Below, piece by piece: positions 2,091 to 53,372 of a DNA stretch of 64,000 nt; the first letter of the stretch is position 1; every line of letters begins with the position of its first letter. The translations under genes and the position numbers were made by a program. Location: contig OX485807.1 of the NCBI GenBank assembly GCA_950295325.1, positions 32,828,440 to 32,892,439 on the forward strand, written 5' to 3'. The stretch comes from Polytrichum commune. Taxonomy: Eukaryota > Streptophyta > Polytrichopsida > Polytrichales > Polytrichaceae. The notes under the pieces are model-generated. The model did not search any database. It was not told where the DNA came from and was given only the letters and a program-made list of their open reading frames with translations.

Positions 2091-2720
2091 GGGCCTGTTT
2101 AGACTACAGTGAAGAAGTGCACGGGTCAAGAATTCTAGAAGAATGGAACAATATGATTGATCTCGGAACGGGTTCTTCATTGGCTGGGGTTTACACTATG
2201 ATTAAGAACTTCAAGCATGGATGAAAAATGACAGGAATATCAACATGGCAAGATTTTTTTTGTTAGGGGAGGTTCTCTAGTGAGTTCTATGGAGTTCTTT
2301 GAGCAACCTCAAACCCTCGGACAAGAAACTTGATCTTTGGAGAACTCCTCTAGCAAAATATGTTGCCATGTTGGCAACCATTTCATTTTTTTTTCATCCA
2401 TGCTTGAAGTTCTCCAGACCTTGGACAACTAACCAACTAATTCAATTATTAGTTAACTTGTTGCCTTTCGTAACTATAGTTGTTCGTTGTTTGACTTTCC
2501 AAAAAATGTAGTTAACTATAGTTGTTCTAAATTTAGCCTGCTAAAAAATCTAGTTAAGTATAGTTATATATATATCAAGTTAACTAAAGTTGAGCGCAAC
2601 ATGTTCACGGAAGTTTTATGTAGTGTTGAAGTGTCACTAGTGTGTATTTGTGTCGGTGGTGTACATAGAAGTTGTTCCAGAGCCATTAGAAAAGTTATCA
2701 GGCCTTTAAGAGGCCTCCAA
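2091..2720 (+). repeat. Left terminal inverted repeat of two-gene transposon
   Basis: Aligns by eye with the reverse complement of 8995-9424. Matching blocks include GTTTAGAC, GAAGAAGTGCAC, CAATATGATT, GGGTTCTTCA and GGGTTTACACTATG. Farther in lie TAGTTAACTATAGTTGTTC and CATTAGAAAA.TTAT.AGGCC. The left copy carries an extra stretch (about 2220-2400) that the right copy lacks. The right copy lies at 8995-9424. Confidence 0.7.
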
Positions 2721-3030
2721 TATTCGTACCCAATGGAGCCTATGTGCAGAGCCTGCCCGTGGCTACATCAAGAACGTATGACGTGGAAGGCAGTTGTACA
2801 GGTATGATTATCCATCGAATGAGAAAGTGGGATTTAGGCGCCAAGAAGCCTTGTGCGCTTACATTGTTTTGAAGTGTCAATGTTTCGCGCGCTTCTGTGG
2901 TTTCATTGTCTTTCTGACCGCTCTTCTTTTTCTATGTGTTTTTCTATGTGTCGCTTCTCTTTGCCAAGGAATTTTGCCAGGTTTAGGTTTGCTTCTAGGA
3001 ACTCTCTGGTTCTCTACTTCTGTTTCGGCA

Positions 3031-4817
3031 ATGGCTATCGGAGCGATTGAGTCAGTCAGTATTGAAAATATTTCTGAAGCAGGAGTTAGGGTTTCATTGA
3101 GAGTAGAAATTAATTCGTGGGTTTCTCTTAGGCCTAGAAAAAAGGGAGGGCACGCAAAGGATGCGGCAAGGCACGGTGGTGCATATAGCATTGAAGGATC
3201 TTATAAGGCAAAGATTTCGGGATTCCGCATGAGTCCAGGATGCAAAGGCGTTTCGGCAGTGCAAGTGCAACACGCATATCAGCGCCGTCAACTGGACTTA
3301 GATCCCATAGTCTTAATTGGGCTAGGCGCCGTAAACTGTAAGTTAGAAGCTTCGTTTCCTTACAGCATGCTTATTATTGTATTGTTAACTTTTTTTCCCT
3401 TCAAACATTGAGGGTTCTGTATATTGTTTATCTTGGCAGACTTTTGATGGCTCGAATTCTCTCTACTCCCTGAGTTCTCCTAATGTCGTTCACTTTTTTT
3501 TCTTGTCAATCAGTATGTAGACTGGTTCTCACCTTCTTCAGTCAGTTTCTCGTTTTGTCCGATTCTATATTGGTGATGAAGTTGTGAGTTCCGTGCATAT
3601 GAATGGTAGTGCATGTAAATTATTAGTTCAGAATTAGCGTCGTGACAAGAACAACGGTACCAGTCATGCTACTGTGCAGCTGTGGAATGAACTCCCATGA
3701 CATCACCAGTAGCTACTCTTTGCTGCAGTAGAACTCATATGGCATTTTGTTAAATGTTGTGGAACTTATCATTGCCATGCCTCGGTGGGCTCTGAGCTAA
3801 ATTCTATCGAAAATGTGTGCTCCTGAATCTCATAATTATGTCTCCTTCGTTTCCTTACAGCATGTTTATTATTGTATTGTTAACTTTTTTCCCTTCAAAC
3901 ATTGAGGGTTCTGTATATTGTTTATCTTGGCAGACTTGTATTTGAGTGACTTCAAAGATTGGGTACACCCAGAGAGCATCATTGGAGTTATTGTGGTTCT
4001 TCATGCTGAGATTGGAGAGCGTACTCGAGGGGTCAGGTCACATGCGGAGCTCTTAAGGGACAATGTTTTCTTTTATAATGCTACATACATACCAAGATCA
4101 AATTCTTTGACTTTTGGGACAGTGATCCCAATTCCACTTCCTGGACTCGAATCAGCTGAATGGCCGTTGCCAGATATGTATACAACAGAAGTTTTTCGGG
4201 CCAGATTTCGCACAGAGTTTCAATCTGCAATGAGGCCTACTACCGGCAGCAAACAGACACATTTCTCATGCTTTCTACCTATTCACGTCTTTGTTGATCT
4301 GTTTGTTGTAGCAAGTTCAAATGTTACAAGAAAGCCAACAATGTTTGTTTTCAAACCTGTGAAAAAAGAACTCACAGATTCCTTGATGGATCAAGGATGG
4401 AATATTAAAGTTTCAATAGGCGTTGATCACATCAAATGCACAGTTGATTCTACTTCACTGGTATTCCGTTATCACATTGGTAGGTCAATTCTATACACAA
4501 ACTTTGTGTACAATCGAGAAAGGCAAGTTGGTCTTAATAAATGGCAGGCTATGGATAATTTTGAGCCTGAAGTTATTGTGACTATCCAGTGCGAGATGGG
4601 AGACATGTGGAGCCAAGAGCTGGAAGTTGGAATGTCGTGGTCCCTGTCAGATGTGAGAAAAGAATTAGAAGTGTATTTGGGAAGTGATATTGAGTTTAGG
4701 CTTGCGATCATTGATTGTAACAGAGCGAATTTAGTCAACTACAGAAACGAAAAGAAGAAGTTTGTTGTAGACTTGTTACCACCAAAAAAACTTCGCCTTA
4801 TAGAAAAATTAGCTTAG
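3031..4817 (+). CDS. Unknown protein, partner gene of the transposase
   Basis: Two exons, 3031-3337 and 3934-4817, joined at donor GTAAGT and acceptor CTTGGCAG, give about 396 residues starting MAIGAIESVSI. I do not recognise the family. The protein is mixed alpha/beta in appearance with no signal peptide or clear membrane span. It contains a basic patch (RPRKKGG, near residue 35) and ends in a conserved-looking segment (WSLSDVRKELEVYLG) followed by a basic C-terminus. I see no kelch repeats, so it is not an obvious RAG2 homologue. It converges on the transposase-like gene with about 0.5 kb between stop codons, and both lie within the same TIRs, so a role in transposition or regulation is inferred. 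The frame is intact, unlike its neighbour. The last ~95 bp of the intron, including the acceptor, are duplicated upstream. Confidence 0.6.
3350..3940 (+). repeat. Duplicated intron 3' end (two ~95-bp direct copies)
   Basis: About 95 bp ending in TTTATCTTGGCAGACTT occurs at about 3350-3444 and again at 3846-3940, nearly identical. Each copy carries a polypyrimidine tract and a CAG acceptor. Splicing to the upstream copy would give TAC TTT TGA, an immediate stop. The downstream copy keeps the frame open for 294 codons. Confidence 0.85.
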
Positions 4818-5338
4818 TTGATCAAGATGTTAAATTCTTGATATGTTGATCAAGATGTTCATCTTAATATGTTTCTCATGGTCATCCACTTCAATAAGTT
4901 TGTAGCAATGCAGATTGTCGTTCATGATCACTCTTTGCATCACAAATCACCTGGCTGTTTGTTTAGAGCTTGCTCTAAATTTTGCACGTCAAGTGTGTAA
5001 GTGTGTAAGAGTCAACTTGTTAGTTGCACGTCAAGTGTGTAAGAGTCTGTATTTGTAATCACGAGAACCAGGCTAAACAACAACAAAATGGTACAACAAG
5101 ATGCGTTATATGCGCGCGTTAGATGTTGTCAAGGGGTCTTCACAACTTCCCTCATCAGACACATTCTTTCAAACGATGGAGAGTTTACAAAATGGCCTAG
5201 GATAGTTCCATTTGATCAGCTTACCAGTCTGGCGGTCTCCCTATCAACATCCAACTAATAAACCCAGGCCTAGAACTTCAAGTAGAACGTCGCAGTACAC
5301 CTGGGGCGCGAACATATTAAGCTTAGTTGATCAAGATG
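4818..5338. other. Convergent intergenic region of the transposon
   Basis: Lies between the two stop codons of the convergent pair. It holds short direct repeats (CACGTCAAGTGTGTAAG twice near 4985-5042, and TTAGTTGATCAAGATGTTAAA at about 4813 and 5322). No ORF is supported. Confidence 0.5.
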
Positions 5339-8300
5339 TTAAACACTATTGTTGCTTGTGCATGCTTCTTCAGTGATTGGCAACCACTTGCTGCCTTGGC
5401 GTCGACACTTGGATCTCCATGCTGCACTGTGAGCAGTTGCACTAGATCGTAAGGAAGCCTCCCGCCTTGCAGCTATTGCTAGCTCGGCTTCTAGAGTGTC
5501 GAATTCATTCACAGGAATCTGAGTATCTTTATTTCGAAATCTATGGGCTATAATCCGGTACCAATGTTGAAAAATTTGTACCAAAGGACTCTTCTTCACT
5601 CTACCTCCTGAGTGTTGGGTGTGGCGTTGGTAGGCAGTCTTAGCGGCATGATGACTATTTTCCACTCCCTGACAGCTCCATACTGCTAGAGAACCATATT
5701 TCTCTACAAAAAACACAGCATGTCGTACTAGAACATGTTGTTTGACAAGTGAGGTGATATAGTTAGATATGATTAGTGAGGTGATAATATTAAACAACAT
5801 GTAATATACTTATATAATCGAGCATATAGCAACAGAGCTCTCTATTAGTACACCGTTTGTTGTTCAAGGCACATTTCCATACCTAAGATGAATTATAGCT
5901 GATTTGCACTCTTACACTGAGGAGACACTTTGACAGGCAGACGTACCATACAGACATGAAGTTGTGGAAACGTACCATATAATGAGTCACATGTTGCTCT
6001 CCGAAGCATTTCACAAATAGCCTACCCCATGCTTCAACCTTCTGTTTGAAATCTGCAGCTGATTGATTCTCTTGCAATCTCAGACCTTGGCAATAAGGCC
6101 GGAGTTCATCTAATAACCTCCAGAGCTCAAGCCGGTCTCTTTTATCTTGGCCCCTATTAGCAAAATTTTGCTCTGCATTCACTACATCAACATATAACTT
6201 TCGTGGTGTAGATCCTGTAATCGTTTCAGGATTGAGCTTGAAAAGCTTCATAGCATGAGGTCCACTGAAGGAACATTTGTTTGGAATGTTATTACACTTC
6301 CCTGACAAGTCCTCGTCTTTAAACATAATGACATTGCCACCGTGGGCTCCAGTGAGTGATACGGCTTTCTGCATCTTGATAATGGCCTCCTTCTGTCGTG
6401 CTTCATTTCGTATCACCCACACTTGCATGAAGTGCAGATGCACAAGCTTCTCTATGATTCGATTCAGACAATGGAGTGTACATATGTGCACACGGTCTAA
6501 GGGGATGGGCAACACAGGCTTCCACCGCTCGTGTCCAATTGTTGGACTTGCATCAATTGTGTTGGAAAACATGCCATGACTCCATGAGTACTTCTGTTTT
6601 TCCTTCATTACTGTCTCAGCTTGCTCGATCGTTCCTATCATTGACTTACATCGTTGTTGATTGCAGTATATGCAACTAAATGGGTTGTTTGCTCCCATTG
6701 AAAGGCCATACATGCATTTCACTGTTTTCATGTCGGCTGCCATGTGTCATTCGACTTTGAATGAACCTATTCCTGCAACTTCAAGCATTTGTCCTCTCTC
6801 TTGCTTATCTATCAATGATGGTATTTTAGTTTGGGAGAACACCCAACTTAGTATCTTATGCGACTCTTTAGGAATCTGAAATGCAGCAATAGGCCAGACT
6901 TCTCTTTCGCTCTGCACTGAAAAATATTTCTCACTTTTAGGATCTATACTACTGTCAAGGGCTCTATTCATCAGTGTTAAAGAGACTCTCTCAAACTTTT
7001 GAGCATGCACAACTTCTGCTTCATCGAGCTTAATACAGAACATGAGTGGATTCCTGTTCAGCTCTACAATAAAAAAATTTAAACAACATGTCAAAAACTT
7101 ATATTCAATGATGCACAAATCAATGAGATTGAAGTGAACATGCAGCTTCATTTCCAACTCTAATATAAACTCTTGAAGGTGAACATGAACTCATGAAGAG
7201 CTGTGATACATACCTTCAATTGTGATGCCATATAGTTCAACCATTGTGCGTTGCACTTGCTCCACATCAGCAAAAATGTTGTTGTATTGATTCAAGGAAA
7301 CGATGACAGAGTCTTTCTCCTTAGATTTAGTTGGTAGTGGAAATGTGTTTGATTCAGTCAACGAGTAGTAATCACCAATGAACTCTGCTAACTTTAGATT
7401 GAGCATTTGTCTGGTTTTGGACACTCTGAAAGGCCTTGGAAGGCAACCTATTCGCAAACCTCTGTTTGACACCTTTACAGCACTTTGGAAACGTTTGTAA
7501 AGAGCAGCGTAGCCATTCTGTGTGATGCCATTATAGTCCATTGTTTCGACAATTTCCTCTGGACCAATGCTCTCTCCAATCTTGTCCATATATTCATTTG
7601 CAATTCCGACTCCTACTTTGTTCATTCTTGTTGTTTTGCAGATTGCAGATACTTCATTTACTGACAACATATTTGCAAGGACCTTCCCTGTTTCAGCTTG
7701 TTTTTCATGACTACCACAAAGACGCCGTCGAGATCCAGTTTCGGAATTCTGACTGCATATTTTTGTTAATGTGGTTGGCGCTATGATCGCCCTGGCCAAT
7801 CTCATTGTTCTTTTTGCTTGACCCCCTCCTGGAGCGAGATCGCATAGATCTTTGCGTGGTCTAACTATACTACGATACCCGAAAGGCGTTCGAATCAATT
7901 TTCCAATTTTTGCTTCTCGCCGTCTCAAAGTCGCCTTGGTTCTTTTGAGTTGTCCCTGAATTAATTTGAATTTCTCTTCATTTTGCTCCTTCTCACTTTC
8001 GATCAATATCCACAAGTCTAATTCAACTTGAAAGCGATCTTCTGCACTTTGTGATTCAATAGCAGTGAAATTGCGGATACGCTCTTCGTGATCAAACTGC
8101 ATGGCAGAATATTCTTCTCTCAACGTAGACAACTCGCCTCTCAAAGAATCGGTGGTTACAAGGACCTCTCTACTTTGCTGAACTATGCTCTCACGTGATT
8201 GAATTTCGGAACAAGCGAAGTTAAGTAGTCGATTCTTTTCCTCAACATCATTTGTCAATCGTAGAATATGCTCACGAAGTGCTTGTATCTCTCTCTTCCC

Positions 8301-8612
8301 TTCATCAATTTTGAACAACATTGTACTGTCAAGTGAGCATAAACTTTCTACATAGCCTAAGAGACCGTTTTTCCCCTCTCCAACATATTCTAGTAATTGG
8401 CTGACGCTTCGAAAACAAGGTCGTTTATCCAAAACAGGGTGCTTGGGATAAAGAGATCCATCAGTCCAAAGGTCAATACATGTAGCTCCCGCCTCTCTTA
8501 ATGCTGGAAACTCTGACTTGTGAGTTTGTTCATGCAACATGCGACTGCGATTTATCAATGGTGCATATTTAGAACCGATGGTAGCAGATAGTTTATAAGG
8601 TTTGTCTACCAT
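5339..8612 (-). pseudogene. RAG1/Transib-like DDE transposase, broken copy
   Basis: Three exons: 8612-7214, 7063-5976 and 5737-5339. Phases agree (1399 + 1088 nt = 829 codons, then 133 codons). The product would be about 961 residues. The N-terminal half has a coiled-coil-like stretch (about residues 85-230). The catalytic half has D480 (CIKLDEAEVV), D577 (AADMKTVKCMYGL), CIYC at 597-600, H830-x4-H835 and E855 in GSLAVWSCQGVENSHH. Mouse RAG1 has D600, D708, C727/C730, H937/H942 and E962. The spacings compare as D-C 20 versus 19, H-H 5 versus 5 and H-E 20 versus 20. A strand/helix segment, WPIAAFQIPKESHKIL, sits where RAG1 has its own PLCLML-type strand. Lesions: an in-frame TGA at 6749-6747 (codon 572, five codons before D577; CGA to TGA fits) and AA instead of AG before exon 3 (5738-5739). 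Other DDE families with CxxC/HxxxxH are alternatives. Confidence 0.75.
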
Positions 8613-8814
8613 TTTTTAACCAAAAAAATACTATCAATCCAAAATTTGACAGACACAAATGCTACAGTGTACTGCACAATCACGCTGCAAAAGCATCACG
8701 CCAAATCTAAAACCATACAGACTAGCAGACGCTGCTCTTCATGACACACAAAATGCCACGAAAAGAAAATGGAACCGCATGAAAAGAAAAGGTCTGTTCA
8801 TGGATAGAATTGGA

Positions 8815-8947
8815 GCGGGAAAAATGGAGCGGGAAAGTTGACGACATGATGACGTGTGACAGGCGCATGGGCATGACAGTGAGCATGGGCAGCTTCTTTG
8901 AACTTCCCGCTCGATGACCGCCCATTCTTGGAGGGGAATATTCCCGC
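8815..8947. promoter_or_regulatory. Cluster of four E2F-like sites upstream of transposase
   Basis: GCGGGAAAA at 8815-8823 and GCGGGAAA at 8829-8836 on plus, and TTCCCGC at 8904-8910 and 8941-8947 (the same motif on minus). They lie 200-335 bp upstream of the transposase start at 8612. The plant E2F consensus is TTTSSCGC-like, so S-phase-linked transcription is a plausible inference. Sites at 8829-8838 and 8902-8912 also form an inverted pair. Confidence 0.45.
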
Positions 8948-8994
8948 TTGCCCGCCCATTCCTAGAGGCACATTGTCAGGATTTGATCAAAGGA

Positions 8995-9424
8995 CCAAGG
9001 CCTTCTCCAGGCCTCATAATTTTTCTAATGCAAGCACTATGAATGATTGTATAAAGGTGTTTCTTGATGATCTTCAATGGCCCAAGCATATTAAAGACCC
9101 TCAACTAAAGCAAATCAAGAGGTGAACTTCTTCGAATATATAATAATACTTGGAATTTTTCTAGTTAACTATAGTTGTTCTTCACATTGGTTTGAGATTT
9201 TTCTAGTTAACCATATATAGTCGTTCCCTGAAATGTATTGAAAAAAATATAGTCAAATATGGTTATTATAGCAATTGTCCAAGGTCTGAAGTTCTCCACC
9301 ATAGTAGTCTTGGCCATAGTGTAAACCCTGGCTCGTGAAGAACCCATGTCGTAGCTAATCATATTGTTGCATTCCCCTTAAATTCTTGATCGGTGCACTT
9401 CTTCATCATTGTCTAAACTAGCCC
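8995..9424 (-). repeat. Right terminal inverted repeat of two-gene transposon
   Basis: Reverse-complement counterpart of 2091-2720. The outermost bases are GTCTAAACTAGCCC at 9411-9424. Two TAGTTAACTATAG-type motifs near 9160-9215 match those inside the left repeat. Confidence 0.7.
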
Positions 9425-14905: not shown

Positions 14906-17900
14906 TAAATTCATACTCGCCAAATATGGGGGCTCTAAGGAAATCACCCGCATTAAATACCACCACTATGTTAGATCACCCATCACTAGAACATTATTCT
15001 TGCTCAAACATAAAGCCGAAGTCCACCTAAAAAATACAATAAACAAATTCCTACTAACCCCATCCCCACTTGAAACTGCCTGGATGCAGGAAGTACAAAT
15101 GCTTCACGGCCTAAATTCCAACACCTCACTTAAATTACTACACAAACTACTTATACATAATATAATCACACTAGACCAAATTACCATGCCTAACGGTACC
15201 ACTCTAATGAACCCAGACGAATTCAAAATCTACCACTCCACTCCTTCTAAACTTATCAAAAGCGCACTTAACATAGCTAATCAATTATTTTGTCACCCCC
15301 CTTGTACTCAATGTCCCCTACCATGCCAACAACACCATCCACCAAGATCCCTAAAAAATAAATATATAATTAGACACCACAATATCCTACCACACTCACC
15401 AACCGCCCCCGTACATTCCCCTAACCTTCCCATCCCCCTTCTACCCCCTCCTCCCAACAACATGCTTAAAGACCCCCGACAATTCCCCATACACAAAATA
15501 ATCGATCATAAACAAAAACAATCCAAAGACCATAACGGAATAAAAAGAACAGTCACGTCGTACTTATGTCAATGGACTACAACAAATAACAACACATATA
15601 ACAAATGGCGAACTCGAAGGGACCTATACCCCTACTGCGAAGCCAACACATGTAATCACAACACAGACCTACTTATCTATTACTACAAAGAAAGACAACA
15701 CAAACATTTTCCAAACATAATTAATGCCTATTTCTCCACAGAACAATATAGAGACACAAGATACGTCACACCAACCACAATAATTCCACTCGCACATATC
15801 TCTATTAATGAATGCAACCCAGAAAACGACATCGAAACAAACTCTGATACCATCCAAACACAATACGATATCGCTCACATATACGAAGACAATGGCCGAC
15901 ACCTCATTACCATCCCGAAAGCTAGACTAACATGACTATGGAAACAATACCAAATGGCAAAAAACAACACACACGGTCTAGAACCATCTACCCAATCGTT
16001 CGAAACTGAAGTTGTCTGGTTATATCAAAGGTACAAATACCGTATCCCAAAAAATGACCCACTCAAACGCGCCCAACATACAATACCAACCCAAATATTA
16101 GATCTCCTGATTACAACATTCAATATTAGCCACTCATATTTTTCATCCCCAGTTACATGCCCCACACAATTCACCCAATTTTACTCACCATTCTCGCGAG
16201 ACATAATGTTCGGATCCCTAGGTAAAGCGTTTGACCATAAATGGCAAGGAATCGGTTACGCACACCCTCATAATACAACAGACCTACAACAAGCTATTCA
16301 TTGGGCGCGCATAGCGGCCCAAAATGATCCATATACAATCACTATACTTATATCTCCGGATACTAATTGGTACCAAAACTCCAACCCACACACAGGCCCA
16401 TTCCCAGACACACACGTCATTGCCCATTTCGCCGCTGATACGATCACGTATGAGGAACCCACAATACCCCCCGAGCTCAATATCACAAGAAAAGAACCAT
16501 CTACCATGCAAATATTTTGTATCCATCACCAAAACAATAACATAGGCACCTAGGAACAAATGAAATTAATAAACGACACAGCAAATAACCTCCAAATACT
16601 ACAAAGTCACACACAAACTGCACCACCCACCCCTCCAAACATCAAAGTTAACCCTAGTAAAAAATGGGCCAAATCAAACTACCCAAATACAATCCCACAC
16701 AATAATACCCCTACCCCACAACTTCCAAACTATCACACTAATCTACCGCTCAAATTCCACCCCCAATTCAGTTACTACACGGATGGTTCCTTTATAAAAC
16801 CCAAAGAAATTGCCCCTGGGGAATGGAGAAGAGACAGAGCTGGATACGGTATCTACAGCCCCAAAGGCTTAAATATCGCCAAAAGACTCAATGGGCATCA
16901 AAACATACTACGTGCAGAAATGATGGCTATACACAAAACACTAAGAATCATCAACACACAATTCCCTAATGAACCCGCATTTATATTCACAGACAATCTA
17001 AACGTATTATACCTACTCAACACACAAATTAAACACCCCACTCTACATAATAGTCACCCAGACCAAACCACACTCAACTCCATGGTAAAAATCCTTCAAA
17101 ACCGTACACAGCCAATCACATTATACAAAGTTAGAGCACACGTCAACATTGACGGTAATGAAAAAGCGGATAAACTAGCAAAAGACGGGTTAGAATTAGA
17201 ACACAGAATTGCCATCCACCCATACGAACATGCCCACGCCACCCCGTACTATTATCAAAAGGACGTCTGGGCCTCGATGGCAGACGTCCCAGACAAAGGC
17301 CCAGTAAGATTCCTAGAAAAACAAATTAAAAAATATGATAGGGAAACCAATATAGCAATCATGGTCACACAAACCCCCAACATGTGTAAATGGACAGAAA
17401 ATATAAACATTGACAAAGAATTGTCCAACGAATTCTGGACAAATCCCTTAATCACAGACAAACAAAAATCCTGCCTTATTAAATTCCGCACAGGAACATA
17501 CATGGGTAATGCTAGAAAACAAATGTTCTTTGGTCACCAGAGGTACCCCTCTATCACGTGTCCTATATGCAATTCAAATGATACAGACACTTGGCTACAT
17601 GTACTACTGAAATGTAACCAACAACATATACACTCACTACGAATTAAAATACATAACAAAACAGTTGGAGAAATTAGGAAGCTCCTAATCTCGTCCGAAA
17701 AATCCCGATGTTTTACCCTCATGAATGCCGGTACCTTCAATAATAATCCCCAAGAAAATACTGTCCCCAATTGGCTACTCCCCTGCACATGTAACACACA
17801 AAGATGTCATTGCAACGCAAGATTTCGACCCGATATACTCTGCGTTCAAGGATTACCATATCAAAATGACCCTCCCATTGACATTGACCCTAACCTCACC

Positions 17901-18233
17901 ATACAATTTATTGAATTCACATATTGTAACGACAGATTCTCCCCAGAAACAATAGAAGCAAAAAACAACAAATACAAACCATTGATTGATAGTATCGCCT
18001 CCAGAGGATGGAAAATCGAACCACTTATTGTCATCACAGCCGGGGCCCGAGCTACGGCCCACATCCCATCTATGAAAATACTAGAAGAAAATCTCAAAAT
18101 ACCCATGGTTACCATCAAAAATACCTTTAAAAATATTAATACCATTGCAATACAATATGCCATGTCCATCCTCCTCCATAAGAGGAGAATTGAAAACCAC
18201 CAACTGCTCCCCCAAAACTTAGACCCTCCATAA
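14906..18233 (+). pseudogene. LINE ORF remnant: RNase H, CCHC, restriction-like endonuclease
   Basis: One reading frame runs the whole length, interrupted by only two stops: TGA at 15933-15935 and TAG at 16551-16553. Both are explained by C-to-T changes. Domains in order: an uncharacterised post-RT region; RNase H with YTDGSF (Asp codon at 16782), AEMMAIHKTL, FTDNLNVLYL and the His/Asp segment VRAHVNIDGNEKADKLAKDG; a CCHC finger CPIC-x9-HVLLKC from 17559; and a PD-(D/E)xK-like domain with RPDIL (Asp at 17832), FIEFTY (Glu at 17913) and KNNKYKPL. Restriction-like endonucleases after a CCHC finger characterise R2-type LINEs. RNase H together with such a nuclease is known from Dualen/RandI of green algae. 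Assignment to that clade is an inference because the reverse transcriptase is missing. Confidence 0.8.
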
Positions 18234-51485: not shown

Positions 51486-52031
51486 ATGGAGAAAATTTGT
51501 GTGGCCATCAGGGTGAGGCCCTCTTCACATGAAAACACCAACCGAGGGCTTCAGTGGAAGGTAATGAACAATACAATTGCGTTGCTGAATACAGCTGGCA
51601 CACCAGTACCCGGTCATACCTTTGCCTTTGGTAAGTTTCTTGACAAATCCTTCCCTGTATGCCACAGAAATAGGAATCGCCGACGTCATACTAAAGCCAG
51701 GATTCATGTGTAGGTTAGAGCGAGAGAAAGCAAGTTAGGCCCTCTTTACACTAGAAACGAGAAGTCGTGGAGAAAACCGGCCAAGGGCCATGGCTCATTC
51801 TTGAGAAGCCAAACTTTGAATTTGACGTCCTTTGGATATAGTGTAAAGTGAGAAGGGGCCACAAAATAATGTGCTGATTTTTTTAATATAATTCTAATAT
51901 AGGGTTGATCGCAACTTCCACTCCACTACCTCTCTTTTCTACCCCAAGACCGGTCTTTCTTTCTAGTTGTTGGCGGTTTCTTTTGCTTCTTTCTTTCTCG
52001 TTTTTGCCTTGTTTACTGAAATTTCAGCACT

Positions 52032-53372
52032 ATGGAGGAGAGGAGGAAGAAGCTTGTGGTGATGATGGTCTTGTATTGGTGTCTCTACATGATTACGCAG
52101 CATGTTAACAACATGCAAGCTTTGATTTTACAAGGTGAGTGGACGAATGTTGCAATTTTCAGCATTTGCCTTCAAAGTTTAGGGTTTAGAGAGAGAATTG
52201 TTTGGAGTTTTGAGAGGCCATCTGGCTTTGTAGACCGGTATTTGTTGGGTTCGTTTACGGAGAAGATGTTTAAGGAAAGGACTCGTGTCTCGCATGCTAC
52301 ATTCAGATTTTTATGTGAGAAATTAGGTCCGTTTTTGAAAAAACAGCATACTAATTTCAGAAGATTAATTTCTGTAGAAGAGAGGGTTGCAATGTCTTTG
52401 GCTAGACTTGGTACAGGAGATGGGTTGCGTATGGTTGGAGAGGTATATGGGGTGGCGGAATGTACAATTTCAAGAATTGTGAGAGAATTTTGTAAAATGG
52501 TGAGACTTCATTTGCAAAAGATTTTTATTCAAGTTCCAAATGAAAACAAATTTAGGGTTTTAGCGAAAGAGTTTGAGAGATTACATAACATACCTTACAT
52601 AATAGGAGCCATAGACGGTTCACACATTCCGGTGCTAGCTCCAGTTATTGGTGGAGAAGATTATTACTATCGCAAATCTTTTCATTCGGCTTTGTTGCAA
52701 GGAATTGTTGATACCAATTGCATATTTTGGGATTATGAATTCGGGTGGGCCGGAAGCTTGCATGATTGGACTGTTTTTCAACAAACCAAAGTAGGAAGAG
52801 CTTGTATGGAGAGAAGATTTCTACCGTACAAGTTAATTGGAGATGCGGCATATCCGGTTCGCCCTTGGATGTATTGTCCATTTAAGGATTGTAATGATGG
52901 ACTAGAATCTTACAAGGCACATTGGAATTTTATCCAATCTTCAACCCGAATGTGTGTGGAACATGCGTTTGGAATTTTGAAGGGTAGATGGAGAATTATA
53001 CAAAAAAGAGCAGATGTTCCTTTACGATCAATGGCAGATATTGTATCAACTTGTATTGTTTTGCATAATTTATGCATCATAACAAAGGACAAGTTTGATG
53101 CAATATGGATTGAAGAAGCGGAGGTGGAATTACATAAACGGGTTGAAGAGGACACAGTGAAGGGAGGACAAGTCTTACGAGGAGAACAAACATCCATTGA
53201 TGAGGTAAAAACATGCATTTTGAAATATGGTACTACAAGAACATTTCAAAATTTTGAGCAAGAAGAAATTGATGCTGAAGAAGAAGCTTTTTTAATCAAA
53301 CAAAATGAGAAAGATGCTGATTTATTGAGAGAATCTACCATTGCTCATGAATCCATTGCCAAAACATTATGA
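52032..53372 (+). CDS. PIF/Harbinger transposase (HARBI1-like), intact
   Basis: 446-residue DDE nuclease that catalyses cut-and-paste transposition. An N-terminal hydrophobic/helical lead is followed by a helix-turn-helix-like segment (VYGVAECTISRIVREF). The catalytic acids are D195 (GAIDGSHIPV), D245 (GSLHDWTVF) and E310 (CVEHAFGILKGRWRI). The HAFG.LKGRWRI signature is diagnostic of the family. There is no frameshift or internal stop; length is normal. The Myb-like partner is encoded convergently on minus, 75 bp from this stop codon. With intact TIRs and target duplication this gene is probably recent and could still be active. Confidence 0.95.
   Translation: MEERRKKLVVMMVLYWCLYMITQHVNNMQALILQGEWTNVAIFSICLQSLGFRERIVWSFERPSGFVDRYLLGSFTEKMFKERTRVSHATFRFLCEKLGPFLKKQHTNFRRLISVEERVAMSLARLGTGDGLRMVGEVYGVAECTISRIVREFCKMVRLHLQKIFIQVPNENKFRVLAKEFERLHNIPYIIGAIDGSHIPVLAPVIGGEDYYYRKSFHSALLQGIVDTNCIFWDYEFGWAGSLHDWTVFQQTKVGRACMERRFLPYKLIGDAAYPVRPWMYCPFKDCNDGLESYKAHWNFIQSSTRMCVEHAFGILKGRWRIIQKRADVPLRSMADIVSTCIVLHNLCIITKDKFDAIWIEEAEVELHKRVEEDTVKGGQVLRGEQTSIDEVKTCILKYGTTRTFQNFEQEEIDAEEEAFLIKQNEKDADLLRESTIAHESIAKTL

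Follow-up and report, generated by a model that had tools for sequence, protein, structure and literature searches.

We have identified in the moss Polytrichum commune what is, in our judgement, probably a family of DNA transposons whose DDE transposase bears the CMCT (CACTA-Mirage-Chapaev-Transib) motifs and a RAG1-like H-x4-H...E block, and which also carries a convergent partner gene. The copy that we started from, in the 64,000-nucleotide stretch of DNA referred to here as the window, is on this reading an inactivated and fairly recent member. The family is recognised by an invariant set of residues, by shared ends, by two paired genes that have diverged together under purifying selection, and by insertion at one site with no duplication of target DNA. 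Within the CMCT kind we class it as a RAG1-like variant, and it may prove to belong to the named superfamily Lanisha.

The transposase gene occupies window positions 5342-8612 on the minus strand and is divided into three exons. Exon 1 (7214-8612, minus strand) encodes M1 to E466 plus one base and has a counterpart in the relatives, and exon 2 (5976-7063, minus strand) carries the codons of D480 (7023-7025), D577 (6732-6734), C597 (6672-6674) and C600 (6663-6665), counted directly on the window sequence. Exon 3, if joined as in the relatives (5342-5737, minus strand), carries H830 (5735-5737), H835 (5720-5722) and E855 (5660-5662). With the relatives' exon 3 start at 5737 the exon lengths sum to 961 residues, in agreement with the joined product of about that length in the preliminary description, and all seven residues lie at the positions given there. 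The counterparts in RAG1 are D600, D708, C727/C730, H937/H942 and E962. The placing of the gene in a land plant is also borne out by four matches to the LEAFY SAM-domain in the same genome (on C1 and C7), two of the three that were read being close in sequence.

A search of the 408 Mb genome (64 contigs, seven of them 42-78 Mb long) with exon 2 as the query gave at least 52 matches, a count of matches and not of elements. Twenty loci were read besides the window, giving 21 in all, and for 14 copies, that of the window among them, the exons could be joined across the core. The seven residues are invariant in all 14, including subfamilies that are only 48-63% identical to the near-identical relative L010, and the spacings in the joined frame of the window copy are 97 from D to D, 20 from D to C, 3 from C to C, 230 from C to H, 5 from H to H, and 20 from H to E. 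Exon 2 dN/dS is 0.13-0.45 in eight of eight pairs, which are non-independent, and because of this constraint and the invariance in 14 copies the residue set is more than a chance arrangement. No relatives were confirmed in viral contigs or in prokaryote contigs.

The window copy carries an in-frame TGA in exon 2 (6747-6749, minus strand), where both L009 and L010 are open. The joint between exons 2 and 3 reads VTHYM|HVLxRHAPWFVxEYGSLAVW...QGME in the relatives, and this confirms the H-x4-H motif. In the window, positions 5738-5739 ahead of this joint are AA instead of AG, likewise in L012 and L022, and L009 is also without AG at the relatives' exon 3 acceptor; in these four copies mis-splicing or the use of another acceptor is therefore possible. 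The next possible exon 3 start in the window copy is at 5701, and its use would remove both histidines, such that the H-x4-H of this particular copy may not be spliced together in the way first described. Some of the copies lacking the AG look recently moved, a hint of mobilisation in trans or of another acceptor.

The mobile unit is larger than the transposase gene. The interval 5339-8612 set out in the preliminary description does correspond to that gene, but it covers only about half of the transposon copy, which extends from 2684 to 9030 (6347 bp, with CATTAG...CTAATG ends) and has borders in common with the near-identical copies L009, L010 and L023. On the side of the transposase 5' end the terminal inverted repeat (8999-9030, minus strand) reads CATTAGAAAAATTATGAGGCC-N7-GGCC and that at the second-gene end (2684-2715, plus strand) reads CATTAGAAAAGTTATCAGGCC-N7-GGCC, with 20 of 22 terminal bases matching between the two. 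These ends came from comparing copies, and a search for inverted repeats inside the locus alone gave none. Both ends were assigned in 12 copies (the window, L009, L010, L013-L020 and L023), each beginning CATTA (CATTA...TAATG), and the other subfamilies, with exon 2 identities of 47-61%, have inverted ends of their own that are likewise CATTA-initial. In the case of L017, L018 and L020, a separate locus (at a distance of about 13, 25 and 12 kb respectively) supplied the far end, and the L018 pairing is the least certain. Convincing ends were not found for L011, L012 and L026, and L025 yielded one end only. Heptamers of the RSS-like form CACWGTG occur seven times in the window, where 8.73 are expected, and were dismissed as a feature of the element. 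We also note that in the subfamily of L017, L018, L020, L022 and L027 the transposase is followed by a long region with internal repeats, and that the L020 element is about 12 kb.

The second gene points towards the transposase from the other side of the element, and its two exons (3031-3337, plus strand, MAIGAIES...GAVN; and 3934-4814, plus strand, about 293 residues) specify a product of about 390 residues. A convergent second gene is present at 11 of the 21 loci, and a genome search located copies in convergent orientation at distances of about 6-20 kb from L017, L018, L020 and L024. The internally deleted L023 has it reduced to exon 1, L013 and L028 retain fragments, and the copy nearest L021 is 75 kb off and may be unrelated; at L022 and L027 neither reading of the locus nor the genome search found one. 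Protein identities of the transposase and of the second gene are correlated across eight loci (Mantel r 0.81, reached by one of 20000 permutations), and the dN/dS of the second gene is 0.08-0.43 in five of five pairs. This co-divergence, together with the dN/dS values, identifies the second gene as an old, selected part of the element and not as a gene captured by one copy. A Pfam scan of five spliced second-gene proteins with E up to 10 returned no match for four of them and one unrelated match for L015 (E 0.016); exon 2 of the window, L012 and L044 has no Pfam match, and no Kelch match was seen in any of these sequences. A BAH domain at the start of the second gene was considered and dropped, since it has no Pfam support. 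The intron of this gene contains a duplicated 94-bp stretch of the intron end (3350-3443 and 3845-3937, 97.9% identical), and L009 and L010 match both copies of the stretch.

The sequence flanking L014, untrimmed and joined, is identical at 300 of 300 positions to an empty site at C5:30740262-30740561, with nothing duplicated, and all of the 40 places listed, from 152 candidates, span 300 nt at 99-100%. The host sequence here is a repeat in which a retroelement frame can be made out by eye, and L010 likewise lies in a repeat, with a LINE-like frame recognised in the same way. Twelve places match the whole joined 300 nt of L010, 11 of them spanning 299 nt and one 300 nt; the L010 site has one extra A in an A-run, and three of the 299-nt places show one A less. 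The element L013 lies in a tandem repeat where, by eye, there is no duplication and one mismatch, and the L020 empty site was unusable, its best place matching at 72% over part of the query only. Insertion has thus occurred without duplication at least once, at L014, while L010, the other case that could be read, allows a duplication of no more than 1 bp. Exact flank repeats among the 12 two-ended copies are of 1 bp in six, 2 bp in three, 4 bp in one, and 3 bp or 5 bp in none, and the 1-bp match, that is, insertion between equal bases, is commoner than among shuffled pairs (6 of 12 versus 2.26). Because only one site is perfect, because of the extra A at L010, and because of this 1-bp excess over shuffles, some copies may have a 1-bp duplication.

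By profile comparison the resemblance to RAG1 is real but local, with the Glu block closer to RAG1 than to anything else searched. A profile of the HxxxxH...E block was run against 177,635 sequences of the PDB with E up to 10 and gave 11 matches, all of them RAG1 and each weak on its own (E 0.17-1.1), and chains of RAG1L and Transib, present in that set, were absent among them. Pfam RAG1 was matched by five of eight E-block members (best E 0.0017) and every other family by two at most, although for one member the Pfam RAG1 score of its block, 11.8 bits, falls short of the 25-bit cut-off and is surpassed by that of another family. One of eight full-length members matched Pfam RAG1 (E 0.037), exactly at the HxxxxH...E block, and full-length L011 scored 12.6 bits. 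Mouse RAG1, the only RAG1 sequence used in the block tests, ranked first of 4004 against the E block, among shuffles and three CACTA blocks from the same genome, with a score of 17.6, compared to -1.1 for one CACTA block and no reported score for the other two; against the core profile it ranked first of 5002 with 9.8 bits versus 5.7 for the best shuffle, and the hhalign probability for core and mouse RAG1 was 24.6%. The D1, D2 and middle blocks placed it at ranks 1658, 586 and 385 of 3001, which is no RAG1 signal, so that shared ancestry finds no support beyond the Glu block. The full-length core profile found no match in the PDB, the window's own core gave six weak PDB matches, none of them RAG1, and the window's own pieces did not match RAG1 in Pfam.

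The preliminary description called the gene a RAG1/Transib-like transposase, and the likeness is upheld for the Glu block by the PDB and Pfam matches and the rank of mouse RAG1, but membership of Transib or RAG is not supported: the motif set is common to the CMCT clade, the ends are CATTA, none of 12 copies has a 5-bp flank repeat, and the other blocks tested show no RAG1 signal. The H-to-H and H-to-E distances of 5 and 20 that it listed are both present, although the latter is not diagnostic of RAG1 because the three CACTA blocks (L061-L063), which are H-x3-H, also have an H-to-E distance of 20. At the level of sequence it is the H-x4-H together with the E-block profile that point to RAG1 rather than CACTA. 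A literature search for plant RAG1 or Transib elements turned up no such report that we recognised among the matches listed.

Several affiliations were weighed. The passages on the CMCT clade in PMC12730594 define it, CACTA included, by the motifs C(2)C and H(3-4)H, located between the second D and the E, and describe termini that are mostly 5'-CA..TG-3' and target-site duplications of 2 to 5 bp. The motifs are present in 14 of 14 spliced copies and the CA..TG termini, as CATTA...TAATG, in 12 copies, but the 2-5 bp duplication is not what the L014 empty site and the 12 flank pairs show. That a true Transib/RAGL transposon, with RAG1L and RAG2L, reached plants is improbable. The D, D, CxxC, H-x4-H and E residues do occur at local spacings nearly equal to those of RAG1, ProtoRAG-type RAGL and Transib, with both H-x4-H and H-to-E as in RAG1, the E block is recognisably RAG1-like with RAG1 as its only PDB match, and the convergent two-gene layout between inverted repeats is that of RAGL, which the portions of PMC7204232 concerned describe from animals. 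However, the same portions give RAGL ends that start with CAC (CACTW...), where those of the moss family are CATTA; the 5-bp target duplication of Transib/RAGL has no equivalent in any of 12 copies, and the L014 empty site is without duplication; RAGL pairs its transposase with a RAG2-like protein, a Kelch beta-propeller, and the partner sequences scanned here have no Kelch match; the RAG1 signal is absent outside the E block; and the host is a plant. An unusual CACTA/EnSpm element we consider quite improbable. Such elements often carry two genes. They are abundant in this genome, with at least 150 matches to PF13960 (150 of 573 candidates were scored), and their blocks share the H-to-E distance of 20 in three of three cases, as well as the motif set that PMC12730594, in the passages cited, treats as common to the clade. 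In contrast to the moss family these three blocks are H-x3-H, and the one with a reported score falls far behind RAG1 in the E-block ranking; the ends here are not CACTA, a 3-bp flank repeat occurs in none of 12 copies, and no member matches a CACTA Pfam family (PF02992/TNP2 or PF13960/DUF4218) with E up to 10, although few matches weaker than 0.1 get past the HMMER filters. As two Transib/RAGL features and one CMCT feature are not found, we file the family neither as Transib nor as CACTA.

It may well be, with chances somewhat short of even, that the family belongs to Lanisha, a superfamily of cut-and-paste elements, and so already has a name, which is compatible with the CMCT-type, RAG1-like transposon family that we favor. 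The proposers of Lanisha are reportedly moss workers. The superfamily was proposed in Repbase Reports 2020 and is placed within the CMCT clade, where the passages of PMC12730594 give it C(2)C and H(3-4)H and liken it to EnSpm; the CMCT lineages are said there to make 2-5 bp duplications, which the moss family does not. A fourth view, that the host has domesticated a transposase of this sort as a gene of its own, is hardly credible. Purifying selection on the transposase and the second gene is in keeping with it, but there are many copies with inverted ends and differing flanks, frames are broken, insertions lie in repeated sequence, and an empty site exists for the family member L014. Outside the clade, insertion without target-site duplication, seen here at one site, recalls Spy of the PHIS superfamily, which according to the relevant part of PMC4482050 inserts within AAATTT without duplication. 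Spy has a PIF/Harbinger-related transposase, whereas the moss transposase has no DDE_Tnp_4 match, and AAA|TTT is found at none of the 12 flank pairs.

For the CMCT-type, RAG1-like family we envisage a mechanism in which the transposase would attach to the inverted repeats at their CATTA ends; D480, D577 and E855 would cut the element out, and C597, C600, H830 and H835 would hold a zinc within the presumed fold of the enzyme. The element could then be inserted at target phosphates lying opposite each other, without a stagger, such that no target bases are duplicated. The second gene has long accompanied the transposase and most likely serves it as a cofactor. Having a RAG1-like block, a conserved partner and insertion without duplication, this plant family offers an independent system for the role of a partner protein, and also lets one ask how a DDE enzyme joins both strands without a stagger. 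We tentatively raise the further idea, which we think doubtful, that this is a plant two-gene transposon lineage closer in ancestry to RAG1 than CACTA is, with a convergent partner kept through deep divergence. If this were true, the layout of RAG1 plus a partner would not be an animal invention, or would have arisen twice, and a RAG1-like enzyme could insert DNA without a target stagger. If the family proves to be Lanisha, its gene content and mode of insertion would be added to that superfamily.

Elsewhere in the window, an open frame at 52020-53369 (plus strand) matches a PIF/Harbinger-type transposase (DDE_Tnp_4, E 5.2e-27), and adjoining open frames at 15936-18230 (plus strand) match PCIF1_WW (E 2.9e-12) and RNase H (PF00075, E 1.1e-12); the latter frames probably belong to a LINE-like element, where a match to PCIF1 is odd.
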